33,934 bases of DNA from a virus, in the IMG/VR virus record IMGVR_UViG_3300006102_000004, positions 1-33,934 of that record; one strand, 5' to 3'. A model generated the notes under the pieces. It worked only from the letters and a program-made list of their open reading frames with translations, was not told the DNA's origin and made no database searches. The translations under genes and the position numbers were made by a program. Of this stretch, positions 8,542 to 27,544 are shown one piece after another (position 1 is the stretch's first letter; the number at the start of each line of letters is the position of its first letter).

Positions 8542-8937
8542 ATGGCAGGCCGACCGCCTAAAAAATTCGATTTGGCTGAGCTCGAAAAGCTCTGCATCCT
8601 GCAATGCACCATCGAGGAAGTGGCCGCGTTCTTTGAGGTCTCTCACGACACGGTGCAGCGCCGCATGGCCAAGGAAAAACAGTTTCGCGAAGTGATGGAG
8701 CGCGGCTACCAGAAGGGCAAGATCAGCGTGCGCCGTAAGCAAATGCAACTCCTTGAGGCGGGAAACGCTACGATGGCCGTATGGCTTGGCAAACAACTCC
8801 TGGGGCAACGCGATGGCATCGACTTCTCCGGTCCTGGCGGCGGACCAATCCAGCATGAGCACTCAGCCACAACTGAGCTCCTTAGCCGACTCGCTGGCCT
8901 CGCTTCCCGCGCCCGAGCGACAGAAGATCCTGAATAG
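8542..8937 (+). CDS. terS: Terminase small subunit
   Basis: 131 residues. The N-terminal half has a helix-turn-helix: ELEKLCILQCTIEEVAAFFEVSHDTVQRRMAKE, the DNA-recognition part used to bind pac/cos. The rest is helical (SVRRKQMQLLEAGNATMAVWLGKQLLGQRD), as in phage small terminases that oligomerise and hand DNA to the large subunit. AGGA lies 4-8 bases before ATG 8542. A 35-bp segment encoding SHDTVQRRMA (8637-8671) is duplicated out of frame at 5271-5305. The gene overlaps terL by 83 nt if terL starts at 8855. Confidence 0.85.
   Translation: MAGRPPKKFDLAELEKLCILQCTIEEVAAFFEVSHDTVQRRMAKEKQFREVMERGYQKGKISVRRKQMQLLEAGNATMAVWLGKQLLGQRDGIDFSGPGGGPIQHEHSATTELLSRLAGLASRARATEDPE
8637..8671. repeat. 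35-bp direct repeat shared with 5219 gene (copy 2)
   Basis: Identical to 5271-5305. It codes for the recognition helix of TerS, so this is the likely original copy. Possible meanings are a pac-related binding sequence duplicated elsewhere or a recombination scar. Confidence 0.9.
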
Positions 8938-10225
8938 CCTGCCGGACGCGGTCAATAGGGACCTACTCTACACTTGGCGCTTCTGGGCACGCGCAAACCA
9001 AATCCTCCCTGGAACCGCTGGCGCAGCCGATCCGCGCGAAGACTGGCGTTTCTGGTGCGTGCTCGCTGGCCGAGGCTTCGGCAAGACCAGGACGGGCGCA
9101 GAGACGGTGCGCGAGTGGGCGCGGAACCCGAAGGAACGTATTCTTCTCATTGCGCCGACCGCCTCTGACGTTCGCGAGATCCAATTGGAAGGGCCGTCCG
9201 GCCTGCTGAACTGCTACCCGCCAGGTCAGCGGCCGGATTACAATCCATCCCGCCACCTGCTCACATTTCCAAGCGGCGCGATCGGTTTCACTCGATCAGC
9301 CGAGGAACCTGAAAGACTCCGCGGTCCACAGTTCACGAAGTTTTGGGCGGATGAAATAGGGGCTTGGTCGTCGTTGGAGGCAGCCTGGGATCAGATCATG
9401 TTTGGGTTCCGATTACCGGACAGCAAAATTCAAGGCGTGATAACCACCACCCCGAAGCCACTGAAGATCATTCGTGAGTTGCTGGCCAACCCGTCCACTG
9501 TGATCACTCGCGGAAGTAGCTACGATAACCGCGGCTGGCTGTCCAGTGCTTTTTTTGAGTCCGTCATCAAACGCTACGAGGGAACGCGGCTCGGCCGGCA
9601 GGAGATCAACGCCGAGTTGCTCGACGACACCCCTGGCGCACTATGGACACTGCGTATGATCGACGCGCACCGCATCCGTTTCGCCGATATTCAGTCGGAT
9701 AAAATCGTCCGAATCGTGATTGCAATCGATCCAGCGGTATCGGCGGAAGAAGGAAGCGACGAAACCGGGATCATCGTGGCGGCACTGGTGAAGTCCGGCC
9801 ACGTGCTGATCATAGAGGATTTGTCATGCAAGGAGTCGCCGCTAGGGTGGGCGCGCATCATTGCCGAGGCGTACTTCCGCCACAAGGCTGATCGGGTGGT
9901 TGCAGAGGTGAACAACGGCGGTGATCTGGTTGAGGCCAACCTGCGCGCGGCGGCGCCCAACGTAGCGTTTCGGAAGATTTGGGCCAGCAGGGGTAAGCTG
10001 GTGCGCGCTGAGCCCGTGGCCACCCTGTACGAGCGCGGGATGGTGCATCACGTCGGCCCTTTCCAAAAGCTGGAGGACCAACTTTGCAGTTACGTTCCCG
10101 GCGTGAAGAAATCGCCAGATCGGATGGACGCGCTGGTATTCGCCGTGACCGAACTGGCCATCGACGAAGAGCAAAAGCCGTACCGGATCCAGATGGGTGA
10201 GATGGTCCAGATTTCACCGATTTAG
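8855..10225 (+). CDS. terL: Terminase large subunit
   Basis: 456 residues from ATG 8855 (ATG 8813 is another possible start). The leader DLLYTWRFWARANQ precedes the Walker A loop AGRGFGKT (residues 71-78). Walker B is FWADEIG (163-169, D166/E167), and ITTTPKPL (196-203) is the coupling motif. The nuclease domain begins IVIAIDPAV (D292), has a later acidic site in AEVNNGG, and ends with SPDRMDALVFA. This is the ATPase-nuclease that packages phage DNA into proheads. The start overlaps terS, indicating coupling. Confidence 0.9.
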   Translation: MSTQPQLSSLADSLASLPAPERQKILNSLPDAVNRDLLYTWRFWARANQILPGTAGAADPREDWRFWCVLAGRGFGKTRTGAETVREWARNPKERILLIAPTASDVREIQLEGPSGLLNCYPPGQRPDYNPSRHLLTFPSGAIGFTRSAEEPERLRGPQFTKFWADEIGAWSSLEAAWDQIMFGFRLPDSKIQGVITTTPKPLKIIRELLANPSTVITRGSSYDNRGWLSSAFFESVIKRYEGTRLGRQEINAELLDDTPGALWTLRMIDAHRIRFADIQSDKIVRIVIAIDPAVSAEEGSDETGIIVAALVKSGHVLIIEDLSCKESPLGWARIIAEAYFRHKADRVVAEVNNGGDLVEANLRAAAPNVAFRKIWASRGKLVRAEPVATLYERGMVHHVGPFQKLEDQLCSYVPGVKKSPDRMDALVFAVTELAIDEEQKPYRIQMGEMVQISPI

Positions 10226-10267: not shown

Positions 10268-10845
10268 TGAAAATCAGCGAATGCAGTAACGCCCCGCAGT
10301 GGCTCATTGATGCAACAACGATAGATGCCAACATCACCGTGTTGTCGGATGGCTGGGTATATTGGCATGGCGGCTCCTTCGAGGGCGGCTCCTTCAAGGG
10401 CGGCTCCTTCGAGGGCGGCTCCTTCAAGGGCGGCTTCTTCCTGGACGGCTACTTCGAGGGCGGCTCCTTCGAGGGCGGCTCCTTCCTGGGCGGCTCCTTC
10501 AAGGGCGGCTCCTTCCTGGGCGGCTCCTTCCTGGGCGGCTACTTCCTGGGCGGCTCCTTCCTGGGGGGCTCCTTCCTGGGGGGCTCCTTCAAGGGCGGCT
10601 CGGTTTGTGGGGACAACAAATCACTAAATCCGACGTGGATACTCACCGTGATTCCGCAGATCGAAGGCTACCCCAAAACACTGTGCGCCGTCGATGGCGT
10701 GGCTTGGATAAAAGCCGGATGCCACCTGTTCACGCTATCCGATGCCCGCAAGCACTGGTCAAAACGATCGGATCGAACTATGACTCGGGTGCTGCTTGAG
10801 GGTGTGGCGGCGCTAGCGAAAGAGAAGGGATTGACAGAAAAATGA
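10267..10845 (+). CDS. Pentapeptide-repeat protein
   Basis: 192 residues. Residues 35-112 consist of about 15 units of GGSF(E/K/L), with GYF/GFF variants, giving an F every five residues. That is the signature of a right-handed quadrilateral beta-helix; known examples (MfpA, Qnr) mimic DNA and act on gyrase. The charged position alternates E, K and L. N-terminal ~34 residues (KISECSNAPQWLIDATTIDANITVLSDGWVYWHG) and C-terminal ~75 residues (NPTWILTVIPQIEGYP...VAWIKAGCHLFTLSDARKHW) are not repeats; the tail domain with DGVAWIKAGCxxFTLxxAxxHW is seen in other phage proteins. Its own leaderless double-operator promoter marks it as a regulated early gene. Gyrase targeting is unproven. Confidence 0.75.
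   Translation: MKISECSNAPQWLIDATTIDANITVLSDGWVYWHGGSFEGGSFKGGSFEGGSFKGGFFLDGYFEGGSFEGGSFLGGSFKGGSFLGGSFLGGYFLGGSFLGGSFLGGSFKGGSVCGDNKSLNPTWILTVIPQIEGYPKTLCAVDGVAWIKAGCHLFTLSDARKHWSKRSDRTMTRVLLEGVAALAKEKGLTEK
10369..10605 (+). repeat. 15-bp tandem repeat array (about 15 units)
   Basis: Unit GGCGGCTCCTTC plus GAG, AAG or CTG, 10369-10593, with a partial unit after. Codon choice is almost constant except for the fifth codon, indicating recent amplification. The other two plus frames stay open across the array only because the repeat lacks stops there. Confidence 0.9.
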
Positions 10846-11597
10846 TTAGCGTCACCGCCATCTGCTTGACTGCCGACCGCCAGGTGTACACCGAGAGAGC
10901 CATCCGCTGCTTTCTTGCGCAAGACTACACCCAAAAATCGCTCGTGATCCTGGATAGCGGGAAAACGGCATTTGAGTTGCATCAGGTGGGCGCAAATCTA
11001 ATTCTGGCGCGAGTCGAGCACCAGCCCACAGACACGATTGGCCGTCTCCGCAACTTGGCCAACAGCCTTGCGGTCAACACTGACTTGATCTGCCACTGGG
11101 ACTCCGACGACTGGAGTGCGCCGAATCGCATCAGTGAACAAGTGAAGCTGATCCAAACTGAGCAGCGATCCGGCATTGCCGAGTACCCCGATTTGGTCGG
11201 ATGCAACGAGATGCTCTTTTGGAACTCAGTCAAGCGCGAGACCTGGCGCTACAAGCATCCGCACCCCTCATACTGTGTCGGGACGTCAATGATGTACCGC
11301 CGCGAGGCGTGGGAAGCTGTGCGGTTCGACGAGGCAATCACCCAGGGCGAGGACCACAAGTTTTGGATGCAGGGCGTCCCGTGGTACAAGCGCGCTGCGA
11401 TGAGTTCGGTTCCAAAATCAACAGAAATACCGATGGTAGGCGTTTTGAGTCTCTACGCTTCGGAGACGGAGCCTCTCATCATCGCGGAACTTCACGGAGG
11501 CAACACATGCGCAAAAACAGACAAAGACAAGCGCGAGTGGACACGGGAGGAACAGTGGGACAAGAGAGTCAGCCAAATCATGGCGATGCCCAGTTAG
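10842..11597 (+). CDS. Family 2 glycosyltransferase
   Basis: 251 residues starting in an ATGA overlap with the upstream stop. The N-terminus ISVTAICLTADRQVYTERAIRCFLAQDYTQKSLVILDSG is the GT-A nucleotide-sugar fold. ICHWDSDDWSAPNRI (DSDD at 87-90) is the DxD metal/sugar-nucleotide motif, and GEDHKFW carries the acceptor-side acidic residues of GT2 enzymes. Such phage enzymes decorate virion proteins, DNA bases or host surface glycans. With the GT at 11734 and the FkbM/GT pair at 18381-19918 it suggests a phage glycosylation set. Confidence 0.8.
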   Translation: MISVTAICLTADRQVYTERAIRCFLAQDYTQKSLVILDSGKTAFELHQVGANLILARVEHQPTDTIGRLRNLANSLAVNTDLICHWDSDDWSAPNRISEQVKLIQTEQRSGIAEYPDLVGCNEMLFWNSVKRETWRYKHPHPSYCVGTSMMYRREAWEAVRFDEAITQGEDHKFWMQGVPWYKRAAMSSVPKSTEIPMVGVLSLYASETEPLIIAELHGGNTCAKTDKDKREWTREEQWDKRVSQIMAMPS

Positions 11598-17818: not shown

Positions 17819-18391
17819 ATGATTCTGCCAGTCCGTTATCCCGCCGCAATCTGGAAACCGCTTCTCAACCATTCCTCTCTGGGGCAACTCTCGTTTCGTA
17901 AAATGATCGTCTTACACTCGACTGAGGGCACCACAGCCCAGAGCGCCATCAACACCTTCGCCCAGAGCGTCTTTCCAAATCGCGTCTCGGCTCATTTTGT
18001 GATTGATCGGGACGGTACAGTCTACCAACTCGTGGACTGCAACGACACTGCTTGGCACGCCAGCGCGGTCAACAGCATCTCGATCGGCATCGAGCACGTC
18101 GCGCTCTCGCAGGCGGGTGCCGACTGGTATAACCAAGCAAACGCCACGAAGCCGGGCTGGGTAAGGATGGTGCCACTGCTGGCGACCAACGAGCAGTACA
18201 CCGCGAGTTCCAAATTGGTAACGTGGTTGTGCGCTCAAATGCACATTCCATGCGACAGCAACCACGTCAAGCCGCACTCAGTCGCTAGTCCCCGGGATCA
18301 GCACACCGGCTGTTGCACGGCGACACTGGACCCAGCCAAGGTGATTTCATTGGCGCAGGGCTGGCAATCTTTACCCGCGAATGGCGACTGA
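17819..18391 (+). CDS. N-acetylmuramoyl-L-alanine amidase (Amidase_2) endolysin
   Basis: 190 residues from ATG 17819 (TTG 17810 is a less likely alternative). KMIVLHSTEGTTA gives the first zinc His (H33), SAHFVIDRDGTVYQLVD and TAWHAS (H80) the substrate walls, SISIGIEH the general acid/base region (E92), and PHSVASPRDQHTGCC the later zinc ligands (H153/H162 and Cys). This fits the T7-lysozyme-like Amidase_2 family that cleaves the MurNAc-L-Ala bond in peptidoglycan. No signal peptide, so it needs a holin or other release route. The stop overlaps the next gene by 11 nt. The terminator just upstream suggests control by read-through. Confidence 0.85.
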   Translation: MILPVRYPAAIWKPLLNHSSLGQLSFRKMIVLHSTEGTTAQSAINTFAQSVFPNRVSAHFVIDRDGTVYQLVDCNDTAWHASAVNSISIGIEHVALSQAGADWYNQANATKPGWVRMVPLLATNEQYTASSKLVTWLCAQMHIPCDSNHVKPHSVASPRDQHTGCCTATLDPAKVISLAQGWQSLPANGD

Positions 18392-19052
18392 AGAAGAAAA
18401 AACGGCGATTCGCCAAGCGCTTACCGATGTGCGGAATCCCTGCATTGTTGAGTTGGGCGCTCACTGCGGCGAGGATGAACCTTGGCTACGCGACGCATGC
18501 CAAGTGGTGCCGAAGTACGTCCTGGTCGAGCCGGACCCGCGAAACGTGCAAATGATCATCCGCGAGGGCATCAATTACGCCCGGCGTGGCATTACCTGCG
18601 AAAGCAGACGCGTCATCGTCGGTGCTGTTGCAGAAACCAACGCAACCCGCGAATTTTGGATGAGCGACAACGCGCGCACCGGCGACCACGGTTCTGGATC
18701 GCTGCGCCGGCCGACTGGGCATATCGAGGGAATGCCCTGGATCACTTTCGACCGCAAGACGATGGTTGAATGCTACTCGCTGGACTTCATCTTTGACAGT
18801 CAGTGGCTGCACAAGATCGACCTATTGTGGGTGGACATCCAGGGAGCCGAGCGGGACATGATCGCGGGTGGCCAGATGGCGCTGAAGTATACCCGGTACC
18901 TGTTCATGGAAGCCGAAGAGGTCGAGCTCTATGAAGGGGAAGCGCTCAAACACGAACTTATCGCGATGCTCTCGGGGTGGACGCTACTAAAGGACTTTGG
19001 GTACAACATCTTCCTGAGAAACGAAAACTTCAGCGACCGAGGACCGCGATGA
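18381..19052 (+). CDS. FkbM family methyltransferase
   Basis: 223 residues. The SAM-binding motif I is CIVELGAHCGED (21-32), followed by VLVEPDPRN, and the later LLWVDIQGAE is the FkbM fingerprint. FkbM enzymes O-methylate sugars or small molecules; here it is coupled to a glycosyltransferase at 19049 (ATGA overlap) and probably methylates a sugar added by it. Overlaps the amidase by 11 nt. Confidence 0.85.
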   Translation: MATEEEKTAIRQALTDVRNPCIVELGAHCGEDEPWLRDACQVVPKYVLVEPDPRNVQMIIREGINYARRGITCESRRVIVGAVAETNATREFWMSDNARTGDHGSGSLRRPTGHIEGMPWITFDRKTMVECYSLDFIFDSQWLHKIDLLWVDIQGAERDMIAGGQMALKYTRYLFMEAEEVELYEGEALKHELIAMLSGWTLLKDFGYNIFLRNENFSDRGPR

Positions 19053-19918
19053 AACTGATCGCGCTGATGCCGGTGCGCAATGAGGATTGGGGTCTTGGCC
19101 TCACGTTGCGTGCCGCGCTGATGTGGGTGGACGAAGTGATCGTGCTGCTGCACGCTTGCACAGACGAGAGCTCAAGTATCGCGCGGCGGGTCTCTGTTGA
19201 GAGCGGCGGTCGGGTGGTGGTCTGTAGCCAGTTCGATCCAATTTGGGCCGAGATGAGCCATCGCCAGCAATTACTGCACATTGCCCGCACTCGCGGAGCA
19301 ACCCACATTGCGCTGATCGACGCGGATGAAATTCTGAGTGGCAATCTACTGACAAGAAATCTGATGCCTCATGCTGGCGTTGGCACCATTTTGCAGCTTC
19401 CCATGGCTTGTCTTGCGCGCGGAATTGGCCGCTACTATACCTCGGGTATCTGGTACAACAACTGGGTCACGACAATGTTTCAAGACACCCCGGAAGCGCA
19501 CTGGCAGAGCGAGACCAGGGGCGGCTACGACTTTCACCATCGCCACCCGTTTGGTGTTCCTCTGAGCTTCTACCGCCCAATCGCGCAATCGGAGGGCGGC
19601 CTGATGCACCTTCAGTTTCTTGATGAGCGCCGGCTGCGCGCCAAGCAGGCGCTCTACAAAATGACGGAGCGGTTGCGCTGGCCCGACAAGCACAGTCCCG
19701 AGCAGGTCAATAATCTCTACAACCCCGCCGTCTACCAGAGCGATCCAACACGTGTTGGCACGGCAGAGGTGCCGGAGTCCTGGTGGGCACCGTACAAAGA
19801 CCTGCTCCAGCACCTTCATGCCGACTCCGAGCCCTGGCAGGAAGCCGAGTGTAAGCGGCTCTGGGCTGAGCACGACACACAGACATTCGCGGGATTGGAC
19901 CTTTTCGGTGTAGTCTAG
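19049..19918 (+). CDS. Family 2 glycosyltransferase
   Basis: 289 residues. N-terminal MKLIALMPVRNED...VDEVIVLLHACTDES is the GT-A strand set; HIALIDADEILSG contains DxD (DADE, 91-94). C-terminal (PEAHWQSETRGGYDFHHRHPFG...) has His/Asp residues consistent with acceptor contact. ATGA overlap with the FkbM gene suggests one enzyme pathway. Contains a perfect 14-bp palindrome CCAACACGTGTTGG (19745-19758), unrelated to parS. Confidence 0.8.
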   Translation: MKLIALMPVRNEDWGLGLTLRAALMWVDEVIVLLHACTDESSSIARRVSVESGGRVVVCSQFDPIWAEMSHRQQLLHIARTRGATHIALIDADEILSGNLLTRNLMPHAGVGTILQLPMACLARGIGRYYTSGIWYNNWVTTMFQDTPEAHWQSETRGGYDFHHRHPFGVPLSFYRPIAQSEGGLMHLQFLDERRLRAKQALYKMTERLRWPDKHSPEQVNNLYNPAVYQSDPTRVGTAEVPESWWAPYKDLLQHLHADSEPWQEAECKRLWAEHDTQTFAGLDLFGVV

Positions 19919-19923
19919 GATCA

Positions 19924-21867
19924 ATGGATTTCCGAGCGACTCTCCGAAACGCGAAAGAGTTCCTCTTTCCGCCGATCCCAGAACCGCCACGCGACAACAG
20001 CCCGTTGATGCGCGTGTTGTCCGAAGAAGCTCTTCGCGCCCGTGAGTACGACTCCAAGCTCCGACGCGACTATATGGAGCGCGCCGCGGAACTCATCGAG
20101 GCAAAACAGATGGGAGGCTCGGGGCCGTGGCTGACTCACGAGAACCGCCAGCAACTCGCCGAGCATCCCGAACTGGCGATCCGCGAGTCCAACCCACTGA
20201 TCTCGCAGGGCGCCTACGGGGACATCGAGCTAGCGCTGCAAAACGTGGAGTGGCGTAGAGAAATAAATCTATCCTGGCTTGAGTTCTCCAGGTGGGGGAT
20301 TCAGCAGATCATTCTCATCTCCAGGCTCTACTACATCAAAAACCCCATCGTGCGCCGGCTTGTGGACATCTGCGCGGCTTACGTGTTCGCGCGAGGCGTC
20401 GAGGTGTCCAGCGACAACGACGCAGCCAATGACGTACTCAAAGAATTTTTCGAGCGCAACAAAAAGACCTTCGGCCAGATTGCGCTGGTGGAGGCCGAGC
20501 GGCGCAAGAGCACCGATGGCAATCTGTTCTGGGCCTTCTTCGCGGACACGACGGACAAGGGCTTGGTGTCGATTCGCACTATTGACGCAACAGAAATCCA
20601 GGACATCATCAGCGATCCCGAGGACACGGATAGTCCGTGGTACTACCGACGCACCTGGACCTCGCGCAACTTTGACCCGGCGACTGGACAGGTAACTACG
20701 CAATCGCAAGAGGCTTACTATCCGGCGCTGTACTACTCGCCCGCCACCAAGCCGCAGACGATCAACGCGCACCCCGTCCACTGGGATACGCCGATTCTGC
20801 ACCGCAAGTGCGGGCATGTGAGCAAGTGGTCTTTTGGCTGCCCGCGTGTCTACCCGATGCTCGATTGGGCAAAGGAGGCGAGGAAGTTTCTGGAGGCGTG
20901 CGCCACGGTAAAGCAGGCGCTGGCTCAGTTCTCGATGACGCTCACGACCAAGGGTGGGCAGCAGGCAATGATGGGGGCAAAGCAGCAACTCGAAACTACG
21001 GTTGGTCCGGCAAACTCACTGTGGGACTCGAATCCGCCGCCGGTCAATGCATCGATCTTCGCCAGCGGACCGGGAACGCAACTGGAGCCAGTCATGACAC
21101 GCCAGGCCGGTGCCGACCCGGAGGAGGTGCGCCAGTACAAATTGATGTGCTGCATGTGCGAGGGTGTGCCTGAGACGTTCCTTGCCGATGTCTCAACCGG
21201 CAATCTCGCGACGGCGACAACGCTGGATCGGCCGACAGAGATAGTCTTTTTGGAAAAGCAAGAGGCATGGGTTGAGGACTTAGTGATTATTGCCAAGTAC
21301 GTGCTCAGTGTGAGCAGCGGGGCGCCCAGCGGCAAACTGCGCGAATCGTTGGGGCCGGCCAAGGTCACTATTGTTGAGATGCGGCGCGTCATGCAGCCGA
21401 ACGGCCGCTATATCTACGAGGCGGCGAAAAAGAAGAAGCCTAACACCATCGAAGTGAAGGCGACATTTCCCGCGATTCGCGAAGGCGACATCCCAGAACT
21501 AGCAAAGGCGCTCTCGATTGGCATGACGCTCGGCAACACCAGTGGCCAAGTGGTTGGTATCGACGAAAAGGCCGGCGTGCTGAAGATGTGCGAGTACTTC
21601 GGAATCGAGGATGCGCAAGAACTGGTTGAGGCGATGTACCCGGACAAGGAGTATGACCCGGATCGCACGGCGGAGCCCGAACCGCCGCCAGTGCCGCCTT
21701 TACCGCCAAACCCTGGCGAGGCTCAGGCGCCAGGCGGTGATCCCACTGTACCAAAGCCAGCGGCCGCGCCAGCGGCAAAGGAATCGTTACTCCCGCTGCT
21801 CGGGGACCTAAAACAGATCAGCGAGCAAATGCTCGAAAAGAAGCGCAAGCGAAAACTCAAGACTTAA
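19924..21867 (+). CDS. Portal protein
   Basis: 647 residues. It has the portal layout: N-terminal charged arm, IQQIILISRLYYIKNPIVRRLVDICAAYVFARGVEVSSD (wing/crown entry), RTIDATEIQDIISDPEDTDSPWYYRR, a long stem region (RVYPMLDWAKEARKFLEACATVKQALAQFSM), EVRQYKLMCCMCEGVPETFLADVSTGNLATATTLDRP and a C-terminal Pro/Glu-rich tail (EPEPPPVPPLPP). It forms the dodecamer at the capsid vertex. It begins six bases after the GT stop. Distance from terL (19924 vs 10225) is unusual because accessory, replication and lysis genes are inserted between. Confidence 0.8.
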   Translation: MDFRATLRNAKEFLFPPIPEPPRDNSPLMRVLSEEALRAREYDSKLRRDYMERAAELIEAKQMGGSGPWLTHENRQQLAEHPELAIRESNPLISQGAYGDIELALQNVEWRREINLSWLEFSRWGIQQIILISRLYYIKNPIVRRLVDICAAYVFARGVEVSSDNDAANDVLKEFFERNKKTFGQIALVEAERRKSTDGNLFWAFFADTTDKGLVSIRTIDATEIQDIISDPEDTDSPWYYRRTWTSRNFDPATGQVTTQSQEAYYPALYYSPATKPQTINAHPVHWDTPILHRKCGHVSKWSFGCPRVYPMLDWAKEARKFLEACATVKQALAQFSMTLTTKGGQQAMMGAKQQLETTVGPANSLWDSNPPPVNASIFASGPGTQLEPVMTRQAGADPEEVRQYKLMCCMCEGVPETFLADVSTGNLATATTLDRPTEIVFLEKQEAWVEDLVIIAKYVLSVSSGAPSGKLRESLGPAKVTIVEMRRVMQPNGRYIYEAAKKKKPNTIEVKATFPAIREGDIPELAKALSIGMTLGNTSGQVVGIDEKAGVLKMCEYFGIEDAQELVEAMYPDKEYDPDRTAEPEPPPVPPLPPNPGEAQAPGGDPTVPKPAAAPAAKESLLPLLGDLKQISEQMLEKKRKRKLKT

Positions 21868-22889: not shown

Positions 22890-25484
22890 ATGAAGTGGCT
22901 GAAGGTCCTGCTTTTGGCTGTTTCGTGCGGTGGCGCATTTGGCGCGATCACGCTGGTAAAGGACCACGGTGGCACCGGCAGCGCCAGCGCCACCTCGATT
23001 CCTTATACTCTTCCACAGACGCCGGCTTCGGGCGACGTGATGATCTTGTTCTTCACGAGCAGCGCGCTGGCGACCGCTGATACCATCACGTCGATCTCTG
23101 AGACCAATGTGGTTTGGTCGCGAGTCAAGTCTTTCGCCAATGTCGAGCTTGGGGTGGAGATTTGGGCTGGCGTGGTGTCGGCTTCGGCCAGCACAAGCGT
23201 CACGGTCAACATCTCCGGTTCATCGTTCAACGGTGACGTGTTCGAGATTCTCGAATATGCGGGCGTGAGCACTACTGTGGATGCGGCGGCGGTGACGAAC
23301 ACCGCCACCAGCACATCTCCGTCAATCAGCGCATACAGCACCGGCGCGTCTGGCGAACTAATGCTCGTATGCGTGGGAAAGACCGCATCTGGCGCTCCAA
23401 GCGTGCAGCCGACAGGATATACCTCCGCAACGTTCCAGGCGTTCTCAGCGGCGGGAATTCAGGGAAATTATGTATTAAGCAGCACATCCGGCGCGCAAAC
23501 CGCAACATGGACGATCGGGTCAACCCATTGGGGAACCATCGCCGTTGCGCTCAAGCCATCTGGCGTAGCGAACACGAGAACAACATCGGATGCGGCGCTG
23601 GTGATGGATGCTCGCTCTGGCCTGGGCGCGCACTTCGGAAAGCCAAATGACGTGGTCCGCGTATTGGACACCAAAGCGCAATTGGCTGCGCACTTCGGTA
23701 AACCGAACGATGTAGTCCGCGTGCTCGACGTAAGAGTCGGGATTGCCGCTCATTTTGGCAAGCCCAACGAAGTCGTTGTGGTAGGGGATAAGTCGGCTGG
23801 CTTTGCGGCTCATGTTGGGGCAACAACCGAAATCGTCAGAACGCTCGATTTGGTATCGGGCAAAGGCGTTCACGCCGCACTGAATTCGGAAACGATATAC
23901 GCGGCAGACCAACAGGCGAGTATTGGAAGGCACTTTGCGTCCCTGGCCGAAACCGTTTCCGTACTGGATACTAGAACACAATTCAGCGCTCACGTAATGA
24001 GCACGACTGAGGCGGTCTCGACGATGGATATCGCGGGGCGCGGCACCTTCGCGTTAACGAGGGAAGTGCTTTATACGACGAACGGAACTGGTAAAGGATT
24101 TGCGGCTCACTTCGGCACGCCGGCGGAACTGCTACTGGCACGTGATGCGGCCGGCGGAAGCGCGGCGCACTTTGGCAATGCTGCTGATCTGCTGAGCTTA
24201 ATGGAACTGGTTCTGCGCGGACGTACTGTGCAGACATCGGAACAGTTGGCTGTGTTTGATAGCCCATCTCTAACCTCTGGGCGCAAGGCGTCGGTGTCTG
24301 ATGTGCTTTCAATCCTGGACGCAATGTCTGGCTTGGCTGGTCGTGTCCGGGGCGGCAGAGATAATTTGATCCCGTTGGACAGTGGCACTGGATCGGCTGC
24401 TCGCTTTGGAGCATATTCGGACGTGACTCGATCCACCGATACAGGTGTTGGGCTGGGCGCGCACTTCGGAGGGTCTTTGGATCGAGCGGGAACGTTCGAT
24501 CAGTCATCGCGAACTGCGGCGCATTTTTGGTCGAGCTCAGAAGTTCTCTCGCTCTTGGACGCGGCGTCTCGCTTTGTGGCTCGCGCGGCATTTGTCCAAG
24601 AACTATTGAACCTCATGGATACATCGGCTGGACTGGGAACGCATTTCGGAAGCTCCACTGATCGCGGTTTAGCGATGGACCAACGGGCTGTTCTCGCGGC
24701 GCACTTCGGAACGTTCCGCGAATACGCGGGGACATTCGACACGCTCGCTGCACAGGCCGCTCATTTTGGCTCCTTTGTGGATCGATCCTTGGCCTTCGAC
24801 GCTCAGTCCAGGGTTGGCGCGCATTTCCAGTCGACCGCAGACATATTGGCAGCCATGGACTTGGGCGCCAAGACCAGCATGCGGATCATCTCGGTAAGCG
24901 AGCAACTGTCACTGTTCGATTCGGTCCAAGGGCGATCCGCACATTTCGGGGGCTTTGCCGACCGGCTTGCTCTCTTCGATAACGGAGCGGGCCAGGCGGC
25001 GCATGTAACCGGCACTGTTGAGCGCCTCTTTCTGATAGATATCCCTGCTTCGCACGCGGCACACTTCGAGACGTTCTCCGATATCGCGCCTACCGGAGAT
25101 GCTCCCAGTAGAGTAAGCGCGCATCTAGCGGCATCGTTTGAATCGCTGAAACCGATGGATTTGGCGGGGCGTATTCGCGGTGCCACGGCTTACACCTTGG
25201 AACTACTGAGAATGCTGGATTGCTATGTTTGTCCGGGCACCAGCCGGAACTTAACTGCGATTTTCTTTGAATCGCTGAAACCGATGGATTTGGCGGGGGG
25301 TACAATGATGCCGTGGAGTCCAGTTGTGCGATATCCAGGATTTTACAGCCGGGCTCTCACTGTGGGGATTTACACAGCACCATCAGGGAGCGGAATGTAC
25401 TTGAAGCTAGGGACCGTGGCGAACTACATCTATCAGTTGCCAAACGGATTGTACGTTAGACCGAACACGAGGCTTGTATGGTGA
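22890..25484 (+). CDS. Exported protein with 20-aa AHFG repeats
   Basis: 864 residues. Signal peptide MKWLKVLLLAVSCGGAFGA. Residues ~25-230 are a jelly-roll-like domain also seen in 28463-29209 (ISETNVVWSRV, FEILEYAGVSTTVD, SPSISAYSTGASGELMLVCV, TATWTIGSTHWGTIAVALKPSG). From ~231 to ~780, about 27 units of 20 residues follow consensus (G/A)AHFG-x4-D/E-x-L/V-x3-D. The last ~90 residues contain a second FESLKPMDLAG copy and a C-terminal beta segment. It resembles extended fibrous surface proteins; a virion fibre or an exported host-surface protein are both possible. Function unknown. Confidence 0.6.
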   Translation: MKWLKVLLLAVSCGGAFGAITLVKDHGGTGSASATSIPYTLPQTPASGDVMILFFTSSALATADTITSISETNVVWSRVKSFANVELGVEIWAGVVSASASTSVTVNISGSSFNGDVFEILEYAGVSTTVDAAAVTNTATSTSPSISAYSTGASGELMLVCVGKTASGAPSVQPTGYTSATFQAFSAAGIQGNYVLSSTSGAQTATWTIGSTHWGTIAVALKPSGVANTRTTSDAALVMDARSGLGAHFGKPNDVVRVLDTKAQLAAHFGKPNDVVRVLDVRVGIAAHFGKPNEVVVVGDKSAGFAAHVGATTEIVRTLDLVSGKGVHAALNSETIYAADQQASIGRHFASLAETVSVLDTRTQFSAHVMSTTEAVSTMDIAGRGTFALTREVLYTTNGTGKGFAAHFGTPAELLLARDAAGGSAAHFGNAADLLSLMELVLRGRTVQTSEQLAVFDSPSLTSGRKASVSDVLSILDAMSGLAGRVRGGRDNLIPLDSGTGSAARFGAYSDVTRSTDTGVGLGAHFGGSLDRAGTFDQSSRTAAHFWSSSEVLSLLDAASRFVARAAFVQELLNLMDTSAGLGTHFGSSTDRGLAMDQRAVLAAHFGTFREYAGTFDTLAAQAAHFGSFVDRSLAFDAQSRVGAHFQSTADILAAMDLGAKTSMRIISVSEQLSLFDSVQGRSAHFGGFADRLALFDNGAGQAAHVTGTVERLFLIDIPASHAAHFETFSDIAPTGDAPSRVSAHLAASFESLKPMDLAGRIRGATAYTLELLRMLDCYVCPGTSRNLTAIFFESLKPMDLAGGTMMPWSPVVRYPGFYSRALTVGIYTAPSGSGMYLKLGTVANYIYQLPNGLYVRPNTRLVW
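23580..25230 (+). repeat. ~27 tandem 60-nt (20-aa) repeats
   Basis: AHFG codons recur with a 60-nt step (e.g. 23628, 23688, 23748). Degenerate in the middle, well conserved at both ends. The reading frame is unbroken. Confidence 0.85.
25137..25169 (+). repeat. 33-bp direct repeat, copy 1
   Basis: Identical to 25266-25298; encodes FESLKPMDLAG. The pair is 129 nt apart inside the 864-aa gene, pointing to a recent segmental duplication. Confidence 0.9.
25266..25298 (+). repeat. 33-bp direct repeat, copy 2
   Basis: Second copy of 25137-25169, in the same reading frame. Confidence 0.9.
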
Positions 25485-25840
25485 AACTTCTTTGCGCTCT
25501 TGTCCTTTTGGCCGGTTTCGTTTCCGCGGAAACCGTGCTGACGATTACCAAAACGCCCTACGAAGTATTCTCTTGCTCTGTGGACTTCTCCCAGGCTGTT
25601 GGGAGTTCCAATATCGCGCTGGCCGGGGTCACGGCGAAGGATGCGAGCGGGAACGATGCCAGCGTGACAATCATTGCCGCCAACCCGATTCCTGCTGTGG
25701 TTCCGAGCACCAGTAAGGTCGCCTTCTCAATTCAGGGCGGAACTCCTGGTATCAGTTATACTGCTTCGGTCAAGGTCACGAATTCGGCAACCGGGGAACA
25801 ATTTGAGGGAACGATTGTCATCCGAATCGCCCAACAATAG
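25478..25840 (+). CDS. Small exported beta-sandwich protein
   Basis: 120 residues; ATG 25478 overlaps the upstream stop by 7 nt. Signal peptide MVKLLCALVLLAGFVSA. The body (FSQAVGSSNIALAGVTAKDASGNDASVTIIAANPIPAVVPSTSKVAFSIQGGTPGISYTASVKVTNSATGEQFEGTIVIRI) is an immunoglobulin-like beta sandwich of a kind also found as small virion decoration proteins. Either an exported decoration/fibre partner or an exported accessory. Confidence 0.6.
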   Translation: MVKLLCALVLLAGFVSAETVLTITKTPYEVFSCSVDFSQAVGSSNIALAGVTAKDASGNDASVTIIAANPIPAVVPSTSKVAFSIQGGTPGISYTASVKVTNSATGEQFEGTIVIRIAQQ

Positions 25841-26024
25841 CGACCTACTAAACACCTTCGCCGCAGATCCGTGTTGCCGGATCGGTAAAGCTCTAAAGCA
25901 GGGCATCGAAGGGGACACCTGGACCTGTCCGAAGTGCGGAACCGAGTGGAAGCCGCGTGAACTAGGCGCGATTCGACACTGGGAGCCTCACCCTGTCATC
26001 ATGGTCCTTCGGACCAGCCGATGA
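25815..26024 (+). CDS. Small zinc-ribbon protein
   Basis: 69 residues from TTG 25815, preceded by GAGG at 25805-25808. TWTCPKCGTEWKPRELG gives one CPxCG knuckle; an upstream CC (PCCRIGKAL) could supply the other ligands. It overlaps both neighbours (upstream by 26 nt; ATGA with 26021). A DNA/RNA- or protein-binding accessory of the head module. Confidence 0.55.
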   Translation: MSSESPNNSDLLNTFAADPCCRIGKALKQGIEGDTWTCPKCGTEWKPRELGAIRHWEPHPVIMVLRTSR

Positions 26025-27244
26025 AAATCTACCTGATGCGGCACTGCCTCGCGGAAGAGGGCGATGAGATGGACGCCGAGCGCGGGCTTACCGATGTCGG
26101 TGAGAAGCAGACCAAGGTGATGCGCAAGTTCCTCAAGCGCGCCAACGTCCGCCCGGATATCATCATCAGTTCCGATTTTGTGCGCGCTGTAGCGACCGCT
26201 GAGGGTGTGCTCCGCAAAAAGACGGAGTATGTCCAGTCGCCGGCGCTCAGACCAGACGGGACACCGCCGAGCGCCTGGAAAGCGGTGCGCAAACTGGCGG
26301 GCGATGCCAAGGCTGTACTCGTCGTCACCCACGGTCCGCTCGTGCAGCAGATGCTGGCCAGTGTGGCCTTTTGCTTTCTCGATGAGGATTGGGAATACCC
26401 GCACGGCTCAGTTGCGTACATCAACACTCACCAAGGGAAATTTCGTTGGTTCGTCGATCCAAAATTGGCCGCCCATCTAGTGGGGAAGAAACCGAAATCG
26501 GTCGAGAATCCACTCGATGCTGAATTTGCAGGCGCGACCAAGAAGCTGGCAGAGCACTTACTCAAGAGCGAAAAAGCCACAATCGTCGATCCGCTGATTG
26601 CGAAGCTGACCACGGCGGTTGCGCTGCGCTTTCGGCGTCAGTACGCGAAACTTAAAGCCGCGGTACAGAGTGGGTCGCCGATTCAGGCGACGATGCTGCA
26701 CTTGCGCGATCCACAGTTTGCCAAGGTCTACCTGAAGGTCACAGCCGCGGCGTACCAGGGCGGCGCGCAGCACACTGCGGTACAACTCGGAGTGAGGCTG
26801 AGCGAGGCGGCAAAGACTCCTATTGCCAGACTGCCGGGTCCGACGCGAACGGCGGCCGACCTAGAGGATGACTTAGACGAGACCACGCAAGACCGAATCG
26901 CCAACGTTACGAAGTCTGCATTCGCGCAAGGCATGACCATCGCCGGAGTGCTCGGTGTGGTCGGTGCCGCGTTCGCGGATATGGAGGATTCTCGCGCGGC
27001 GACTATTGCGGTTGGCGAGGTATCTGACGCGTTTCACGCTGGCGGTCTCGATGTGGCGGAAGAGGCTGGTGACATCGAGAAAAGGTGGGAGGCTCAGCCC
27101 GATGCCTGCGAGATCTGCGAGGACAACGAAATGCAAGGGTGGATTGATTCCGATGAAGAGTTTGACTCCGGTGACGACGCGCCGCCAGCCCACCCAAATT
27201 GCCGATGTTCCATCGCGTTTCGAAAAGCGGCCGAAGAGGAGTAG
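26021..27244 (+). CDS. SixA-like phosphohistidine phosphatase fused to Mu gpF-like minor head protein
   Basis: 407 residues with two distinct parts. Residues 1-150 match SixA: MKIYLMRHCLAEEG (R7, H8), RGLTDVGEKQ, PDIIISSDFVRAVATAEGV (R55), AVLVVTHGPLV (H104), and a closing GSVAYINTHQGKFRWFVDPKLA. So all four catalytic positions of the histidine-phosphatase fold are present, with C9 in place of the usual Gly in RHG. Residues ~290-400 are the Mu gpF-type head-morphogenesis domain: DDLDETTQDRIANV, then C363-E-I-C366-E-D-N, and APPAHPNCRCSI (H391, C394, C396). gpF is a minor head protein placed near the portal. A linker helix (residues 160-290) joins them. A phosphatase module on a head protein is not something I know from the family; it might act on host phospho-His relays at infection. 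Confidence 0.75.
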   Translation: MKIYLMRHCLAEEGDEMDAERGLTDVGEKQTKVMRKFLKRANVRPDIIISSDFVRAVATAEGVLRKKTEYVQSPALRPDGTPPSAWKAVRKLAGDAKAVLVVTHGPLVQQMLASVAFCFLDEDWEYPHGSVAYINTHQGKFRWFVDPKLAAHLVGKKPKSVENPLDAEFAGATKKLAEHLLKSEKATIVDPLIAKLTTAVALRFRRQYAKLKAAVQSGSPIQATMLHLRDPQFAKVYLKVTAAAYQGGAQHTAVQLGVRLSEAAKTPIARLPGPTRTAADLEDDLDETTQDRIANVTKSAFAQGMTIAGVLGVVGAAFADMEDSRAATIAVGEVSDAFHAGGLDVAEEAGDIEKRWEAQPDACEICEDNEMQGWIDSDEEFDSGDDAPPAHPNCRCSIAFRKAAEEE

Positions 27245-27253
27245 AATACCAGC

Positions 27254-27544
27254 ATGGTAATTCAAACGCCGGCCGATTACACCGGAACGGGAGCGACCGT
27301 CAGCCTCGCTACGATCGCGGGCTTTGACGCATGGTGCAAGATCGTGCAAGTGATGGTCGATGGAGCGGGCGCCCAGTGCCGCATCGGGGATGCGCTGACA
27401 ACGAATGTGCGCGGCACGCCGATCCTGCCGGGGGGTGGACAATTTCTGCCGCCAATTGGTGTCCCGACCGAACAACTTGCGCTCAGCCAAGTTTTTGTGA
27501 ACGTACCGAATGGGACCAAAATTTATGTGCTCTACGTGGCGTAG
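27254..27544 (+). CDS. Small beta-rich virion-like protein
   Basis: 96 residues. MVIQTPADYTGTGATVSLATIAGFDAWCKIVQVMVDGAGAQCRIGDALTTNVRGTPILPGGGQFLPPIGVPTEQLALSQVFVNVPNGTKIYVLYVA is a compact beta fold with no signal peptide, typical of small decoration or adaptor proteins near the head genes. Ten bases after the SixA-gpF stop. Confidence 0.5.
   Translation: MVIQTPADYTGTGATVSLATIAGFDAWCKIVQVMVDGAGAQCRIGDALTTNVRGTPILPGGGQFLPPIGVPTEQLALSQVFVNVPNGTKIYVLYVA

Follow-up and report, generated by a model that had tools for sequence, protein, structure and literature searches.

For phages, the injection of enzymes that modify the proteins, RNA and nucleotides of the host is established or has been proposed. 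Among head proteins, MuF proteins fused to enzyme domains have been proposed to be delivered to the host (PMC5576092, PMC5512222, PMC3482391, PMC9503650), and for some of the fused enzymes, namely 2H and RelA/SpoT (PMC5512222) and 2H and Nudix (PMC9503650), nucleotide signals are the predicted targets. In the MuF polymorphic toxins, MuF forms the N-terminal side, the toxin is C-terminal, and an immunity gene lies downstream (Jamet et al. 2017). SPP1 gp7 enters the procapsid through gp6-gp7 binding, i.e., via the portal, and SPP1 virions devoid of gp7 are only about 25% infectious (PMC6316719). SixA removes phosphate from nucleoside diphosphate kinase (Ndk), its H8A mutant being inactive (PMC12934123); the phosphohistidine of NPr is another SixA substrate (PMC7948535). 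A viral ‘sixA’ is attributed to Trubl et al. as a carbon-metabolism auxiliary gene, not validated, in a 2025 review (PMC12713726); sixA is not named in the main text of Trubl et al. 2018. PMC5576092 and PMC5512222 do not mention any phosphatase; PMC3482391 mentions neither SixA nor phosphohistidine, and PMC9503650 mentions no histidine phosphatase. The open-licence literature yielded no MuF-joined histidine phosphatase, no N-terminal enzyme position in a MuF protein, and no description of a virion-carried phosphohistidine phosphatase.

The window analysed here, 33,934 nucleotides long, is the entire IMG/VR record IMGVR_UViG_3300006102_000004. It contains a gene in which a SixA-type domain (residues 1–150, N-terminal) and a MuF domain (residues 281–407, C-terminal) are fused:

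26021..27244, plus strand: SixA-MuF fusion gene, ATG start, 407 aa; homologues fused in one frame in 11 contigs
26021..26470, plus strand: SixA-type histidine phosphatase domain, residues 1–150 (PF00300, NCBIfam sixA, PDB 1ujb, AlphaFold2 model)
26039..26044, plus strand: codons of catalytic R7-H8, invariant in 18/18 phage SixA domains
26183..26185, plus strand: codon of catalytic R55, invariant in 18/18 phage SixA domains
26330..26332, plus strand: codon of catalytic H104 (H108 of E. coli SixA, from the 1ujb alignment), invariant in 18/18
26471..26860, plus strand: helical middle region, residues 151–280 (helices in the model; aligns with the N-termini of MuF-only relatives)
26861..27241, plus strand: MuF domain, residues 281–407 (PF04233; PHROG head and packaging families; tblastn)
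27107..27208, plus strand: CxxC...HPNCRC motif, C363 to C396, presumed metal site; Cys/His invariant in 7 fusions

The initial annotation described a single frame joining the two domains, and this description is borne out by an ORF that spans exactly 26021–27244, by profile matches at both ends, and by homologues. Residues 3–77 match Pfam His_Phos_1 (PF00300; E 1.2e-10, 41.8 bits, above the cut-off of 21.7). The best-fitting NCBIfam model for the N-terminus is sixA (TIGR00249; E 1.1e-17); the score of 64.3 bits is below the cut-off of 74.5, and the protein is SixA-like without being filed as SixA. Residues 1–147 align with E. coli SixA (1ujb), and R7, H8, R55 and H104, the residues singled out by the initial annotation, pair with R7, H8, R55 and H108, i.e., with the SixA catalytic positions. 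The AlphaFold2 model of the fusion protein, for which 22 related sequences served as input, has a mean pLDDT of 81. For the N-terminal domain of the model, Foldseek places SixA 1ujb first (E 5e-8) rather than another fold, and the modelled domain superimposes on 1ujb over 148 residues with a Z of 19.9 and an rmsd of 2.6. In the fold search with the fusion model, MuF part included, phosphatase matches took up the whole list. The fusion of two domains, the SixA identity of the N-terminus and the completeness of the catalytic set are all backed by profile, structural and comparative evidence.

At the other end of the protein, residues 298–398 match Phage_Mu_F (PF04233; E 3.1e-7, 31.5 bits, above the cut-off of 29.6), and numerous PHROG head-and-packaging families match the C-terminal part. 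The gpF motif that had been noted there is present, with C363, C366, H391, C394 and C396 all in place. A chance motif match is ruled out by the profile scores, the fold scores and the 11 further contigs, and the same 11 contigs, all with the same fusion, rule out an assembly error or chimera joining two genes.

The genes that place the fusion in its genomic setting are as follows:

8753..10225, plus strand: terminase large subunit (Pfam Terminase_6N/6C)
19924..21867, plus strand: portal protein gene (PHROG portal, E 5.9e-56)
25674..26024, plus strand: upstream ORF with a zinc-ribbon C-terminus (CPKCGTEW) and a tentative start; 4-base overlap with the fusion
27254..27544, plus strand: small head-module gene downstream of the fusion, counterpart of 11557–11850 in contig L018

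The start at 26021 is supported by the 4-base overlap (ATGA) with the upstream ORF, and comparable overlaps occur in contigs L033, L035, L037, L159, L160 and L162. Genes resembling the zinc-ribbon ORF precede MuF in L006, L010, L017 and L033. The gene after the fusion resembles a conserved head-module gene, and its product has no match in Pfam or PHROG. In the relatives examined, the slot of the fusion has the portal upstream and protease/capsid genes downstream; no capsid gene was identified in the window between the fusion and the contig end. By location, the fusion is a head-module gene. Just before it, at 25478–25840, a Pfam match to Gp77, the fiber-tail adaptor of podophage GP4 (E 2.5e-6), lies in an unusual place for a tail adaptor. 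The terminase-portal interval of the window holds glycosyltransferase-like and FkbM methyltransferase-like genes (10842–11597, 18381–19052 and 18977–19918), and in L035, L161 and L162 the region before the portal also has genes that look similar by eye.

With the portal gene as query, 30 related contigs were collected, in most of which a MuF domain was detected by tblastn. Four of the 30 (L004, L006, L010 and L018) carry the fusion in one frame, and later scans added L032, L033, L147, L149, L150, L153 and L162, which brings the total to 12 IMG/VR contigs including the window. When only the fused SixA domain was used for scanning, ten loci were returned; in all of them the domain is joined to MuF, and six of the ten lie on contigs already known. 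The carriers of SixA-MuF form a group of uncultivated bacterial viruses, within which the fusion has persisted. Many relatives with the same head type have no SixA domain.

Two further arrangements were found. In L035, L037 and L159, the SixA domain is accompanied by only the zinc motif of MuF (CxxC...HPxCxC), which sits in a hairpin loop preceding the last SixA strand. In L019, L160 and L161, SixA stands alone between the portal or the preceding gene and the protease; a MuF profile search of these records, which are possibly incomplete, found no MuF. The phosphatase is thus kept where most of MuF is lost, and SixA must in some cases function without a full MuF carrier. L035 (94.8 bits), L037 (79.9) and L019 (75.7) score above the NCBIfam SixA cut-off, and the other fusions tested score under it, like the window protein. 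The MuF domains of several relatives score under the PF04233 cut-off.

Most of the 18 phage SixA domains have strongly diverged from one another. Besides the catalytic set, all 18 are invariant at G14, G27, Q30, S51, T59, L76, P78 and P106. In the three close pairs formed by L004, L006 and L018, the dN/dS of the SixA region is 0.11–0.28, and the region is thus under purifying selection in these pairs. Because the catalytic set is invariant in 18/18 domains and dN/dS is this low, the active site appears to be retained for use. L006 and L018, which by record name come from the same sample, are 92–99% identical over most flanking blocks. SixA columns ~45–98, around and after R55, are only ~35% identical at the amino acid level between the two (L006 10845–11340 and L018 10256–10750); this diverged patch of ~50 residues falls between H8 and H104. 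Recombination or diversification beside the active site would suit a changing target, although their MuF also has a diverged patch (columns 281–340), less sharp than that of SixA.

Several side observations concern the MuF part. Intein-like inserts occupy the HPN/C site of the zinc motif in L005 (11912–13744), L014 (12964–14631), L015 (4174–6102) and L149 (6001–8025); one of them sits in a SixA-MuF fusion, and another begins in L031. They were recognised by Pfam Intein_splicing matches under the curated cut-off in L005, L014 and L015, and by eye in L149. The position of these inserts suggests that the Cys of HPN/C is an essential conserved site. The MuF protein of L008 (11115–12344) has a C-terminal extension of ~140 residues with no Pfam match, possibly an effector at the usual C-terminal place. 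In L115 (7955–10402), a contig from a Holophagaceae MAG, the portal and MuF share one ORF.

Outside this group of viruses, the fusion did not turn up in 84,980 genomes (one per species, scanned with conserved peptide patterns) or in 50,697 isolate phage records; both searches returned SixA alone or MuF alone. A search of the class to which a Bryobacterales genome belongs (399 genomes) gave the same picture among the matches listed. A single-sequence pattern search of viral contigs returned nothing, probably because the patterns are poorly conserved; the portal-gene route succeeded. The view that no described family has this fusion therefore holds for the collections, with genomes taken one per species, and for the open-licence literature covered. 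In a tree of ten phage SixA domains and 24 cellular ones, the latter sampled from genomes of Terriglobia and of the Melainabacteria type, a branch with support of 92/90 separates the phage domains from the cellular ones. In the midpoint-rooted portal tree, the SixA-bearing phages form deep, separate branches, and most relatives without SixA are nested together in one group. With the direction taken from this rooting, the pattern fits one old acquisition of SixA followed by losses; alternatively, SixA may have been transferred several times.

The SixA-less part of the portal tree includes three carriers of a different histidine phosphatase domain:

L017 13027–13608, L022 2830–3423 and L031 3631–4215: permuted histidine-phosphatase domain, insert in the MuF ORF
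L114 6217–6819: permuted histidine-phosphatase domain, standalone; Pfam score of 74 bits once rearranged

L112 is near-identical to L022. The inserts match His_Phos_1 from profile position 10–14 onward (E about 1e-13) and end in GQYFAQHGETDWN, which resembles the missing first strand. When the C-terminal GQYFAQHGETDWN is moved to the front, the Pfam score rises from 50–61 to 64–74 bits (64–68 bits for the MuF-embedded versions), and the match now begins at position 2 instead of 16. The domain is thus, by sequence, circularly permuted; the predicted structure of a permuted-domain protein has a pLDDT of 35, and the permutation is therefore read from the profile alignments. In the permuted domain, the first catalytic Arg is replaced by Q and the second His by S, i.e., two of the four catalytic positions are lost; where the usual catalytic motifs would be, (S/T)SGRxLHIxHA and AQHGE are conserved instead. 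Its activity is doubtful because of the Q and S substitutions, and the domain may not be a phosphatase. A search of isolate phages did not find it. In members of a sister lineage, another N-terminal stretch, beginning WYLANxxGxxDQFASGxGL, precedes MuF or lies inside it (L016 8537–9754, L015 4174–6102 and L031 3058–4926).

The most likely reading of the fusion, to which we would give about an even chance, is that the enzyme is delivered and acts on a host phospho-substrate, with phosphohistidine as the first candidate. The fusion protein would belong to the minor head proteins of a tailed phage. In the manner of SPP1 gp7, its MuF part (the middle helices and the zinc motif) would bind the portal and bring a small number of copies into the procapsid. 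The SixA-type domain would be the cargo, an active phosphatase with a histidine nucleophile; the analogy to MuF effector fusions makes this role plausible (PMC5512222, PMC6316719). At infection, the fusion protein would exit with the DNA into the host and dephosphorylate its target, likeliest a phosphohistidine protein (NPr/PTS, nucleoside diphosphate kinase or a phosphorelay), which could help the phage take over the host or evade signalling. The initial annotation named phosphorelay and PTS histidines, and action on these is plausible; we leave the choice of substrate wide because the window protein scores under the NCBIfam SixA cut-off. In favour of this reading are the SixA fold, the invariant catalytic set, the purifying selection, the 12 contigs with the fusion, the head-module slot, the two trees, and the presence of a distinct, permuted histidine phosphatase within MuF in a sister lineage devoid of SixA. 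Against it stand the contigs that keep SixA without MuF (L019, L160 and L161) or with the zinc motif only (L035, L037 and L159), the C-terminal placement of the toxin in the MuF toxins known so far, the score of the window protein (64.3 against 74.5), and the two catalytic positions missing from the permuted domain. The more specific proposal, that a virion-delivered phosphohistidine phosphatase hits the host at the start of infection and that the permuted fold is its counterpart in the SixA-less sister lineage, is in our opinion tentative and somewhat doubtful.

The SixA domains found without MuF in the same slot indicate that the enzyme does not in every case require a carrier in the virion, and Ndk is a known SixA target (PMC12934123). 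Both points would suit a phosphatase working in the virion-producing cell, where a late product of the head operon would reset phosphohistidine proteins (Ndk, PTS) or the nucleotide supply, the link to MuF being incidental or co-regulatory. However, a covalent link to a head protein (12 contigs) or to its zinc motif (3 more) would be costly for a purely cytoplasmic enzyme, and we consider this explanation unlikely.

Alternatively, a delivered enzyme might act on a small phosphorylated molecule, such as a nucleotide immune signal or a metabolite, and would then serve counter-defence rather than be a phosphohistidine phosphatase. This would agree with scores that, for the window protein and the other tested fusions, lie under the SixA cut-off within the wide His_Phos_1 superfamily, with the nucleotide signals predicted as targets of other MuF-fused enzymes (PMC5512222, PMC9503650), and with the ~50-residue patch (~35% amino acid identity) between L006 and L018, as for a changing target. 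Nevertheless, SixA is the best match in both sequence and fold, and L035, L037 and L019 exceed the SixA cut-off, which makes a small-molecule substrate distinctly unlikely; no link to defence was noticed in the window. That the SixA domain serves the head, as a structural or regulatory element for the portal, packaging or protease with its catalysis directed at a phage protein or unused, would accord with the head-module location, the two placements of the histidine-phosphatase fold in one protein type and the permuted version without two catalytic positions, but is very unlikely given that the four catalytic residues are invariant in 18/18 SixA versions and that the domain is missing from many relatives of the same head type.

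If delivery of the phosphatase with the phage DNA is correct, the phage would target histidine phosphorylation (PTS, Ndk, phosphorelays) within minutes of infecting the cell, and tests could make use of a compact enzyme whose inactive mutant type (H8A) is known. In addition, viral ‘sixA’ genes now catalogued as metabolic may partly be head-protein domains. Compared by description with the viral ‘sixA’ gene of PMC12713726, the gene of the window is likewise sixA-like and viral; the former is listed there under carbon metabolism.

Compared with SixA itself (1ujb; TIGR00249), the domain of the window has the same fold and the four catalytic residues and is compact, without the large insert of phosphoglycerate mutases. 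It differs in being joined to a phage head protein and in scoring below the family cut-off, and in the tree the phage domains group apart from the cellular ones. With MuF/SPP1 gp7 proteins (PF04233, TIGR01641), the fusion shares a C-terminal MuF with CxxC...HPNCRC and a portal-protease-capsid module, but it has an extra N-terminal enzyme, and some relatives keep the phosphatase with most of MuF lost. As in MuF polymorphic toxins and polyvalent proteins, for which virion carriage and delivery have been proposed, an enzyme is joined to MuF in the head module. Unlike in the MuF polymorphic toxins, which are defined by a C-terminal toxin, the enzyme is N-terminal, i.e., the domain order is reversed; the fusion is not evidently a toxin, no immunity gene was recognised, and the next gene is head-module-like. 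The joining of MuF to an enzyme is thus already recognised; the histidine phosphatase class of the enzyme and the reverse domain order are new.
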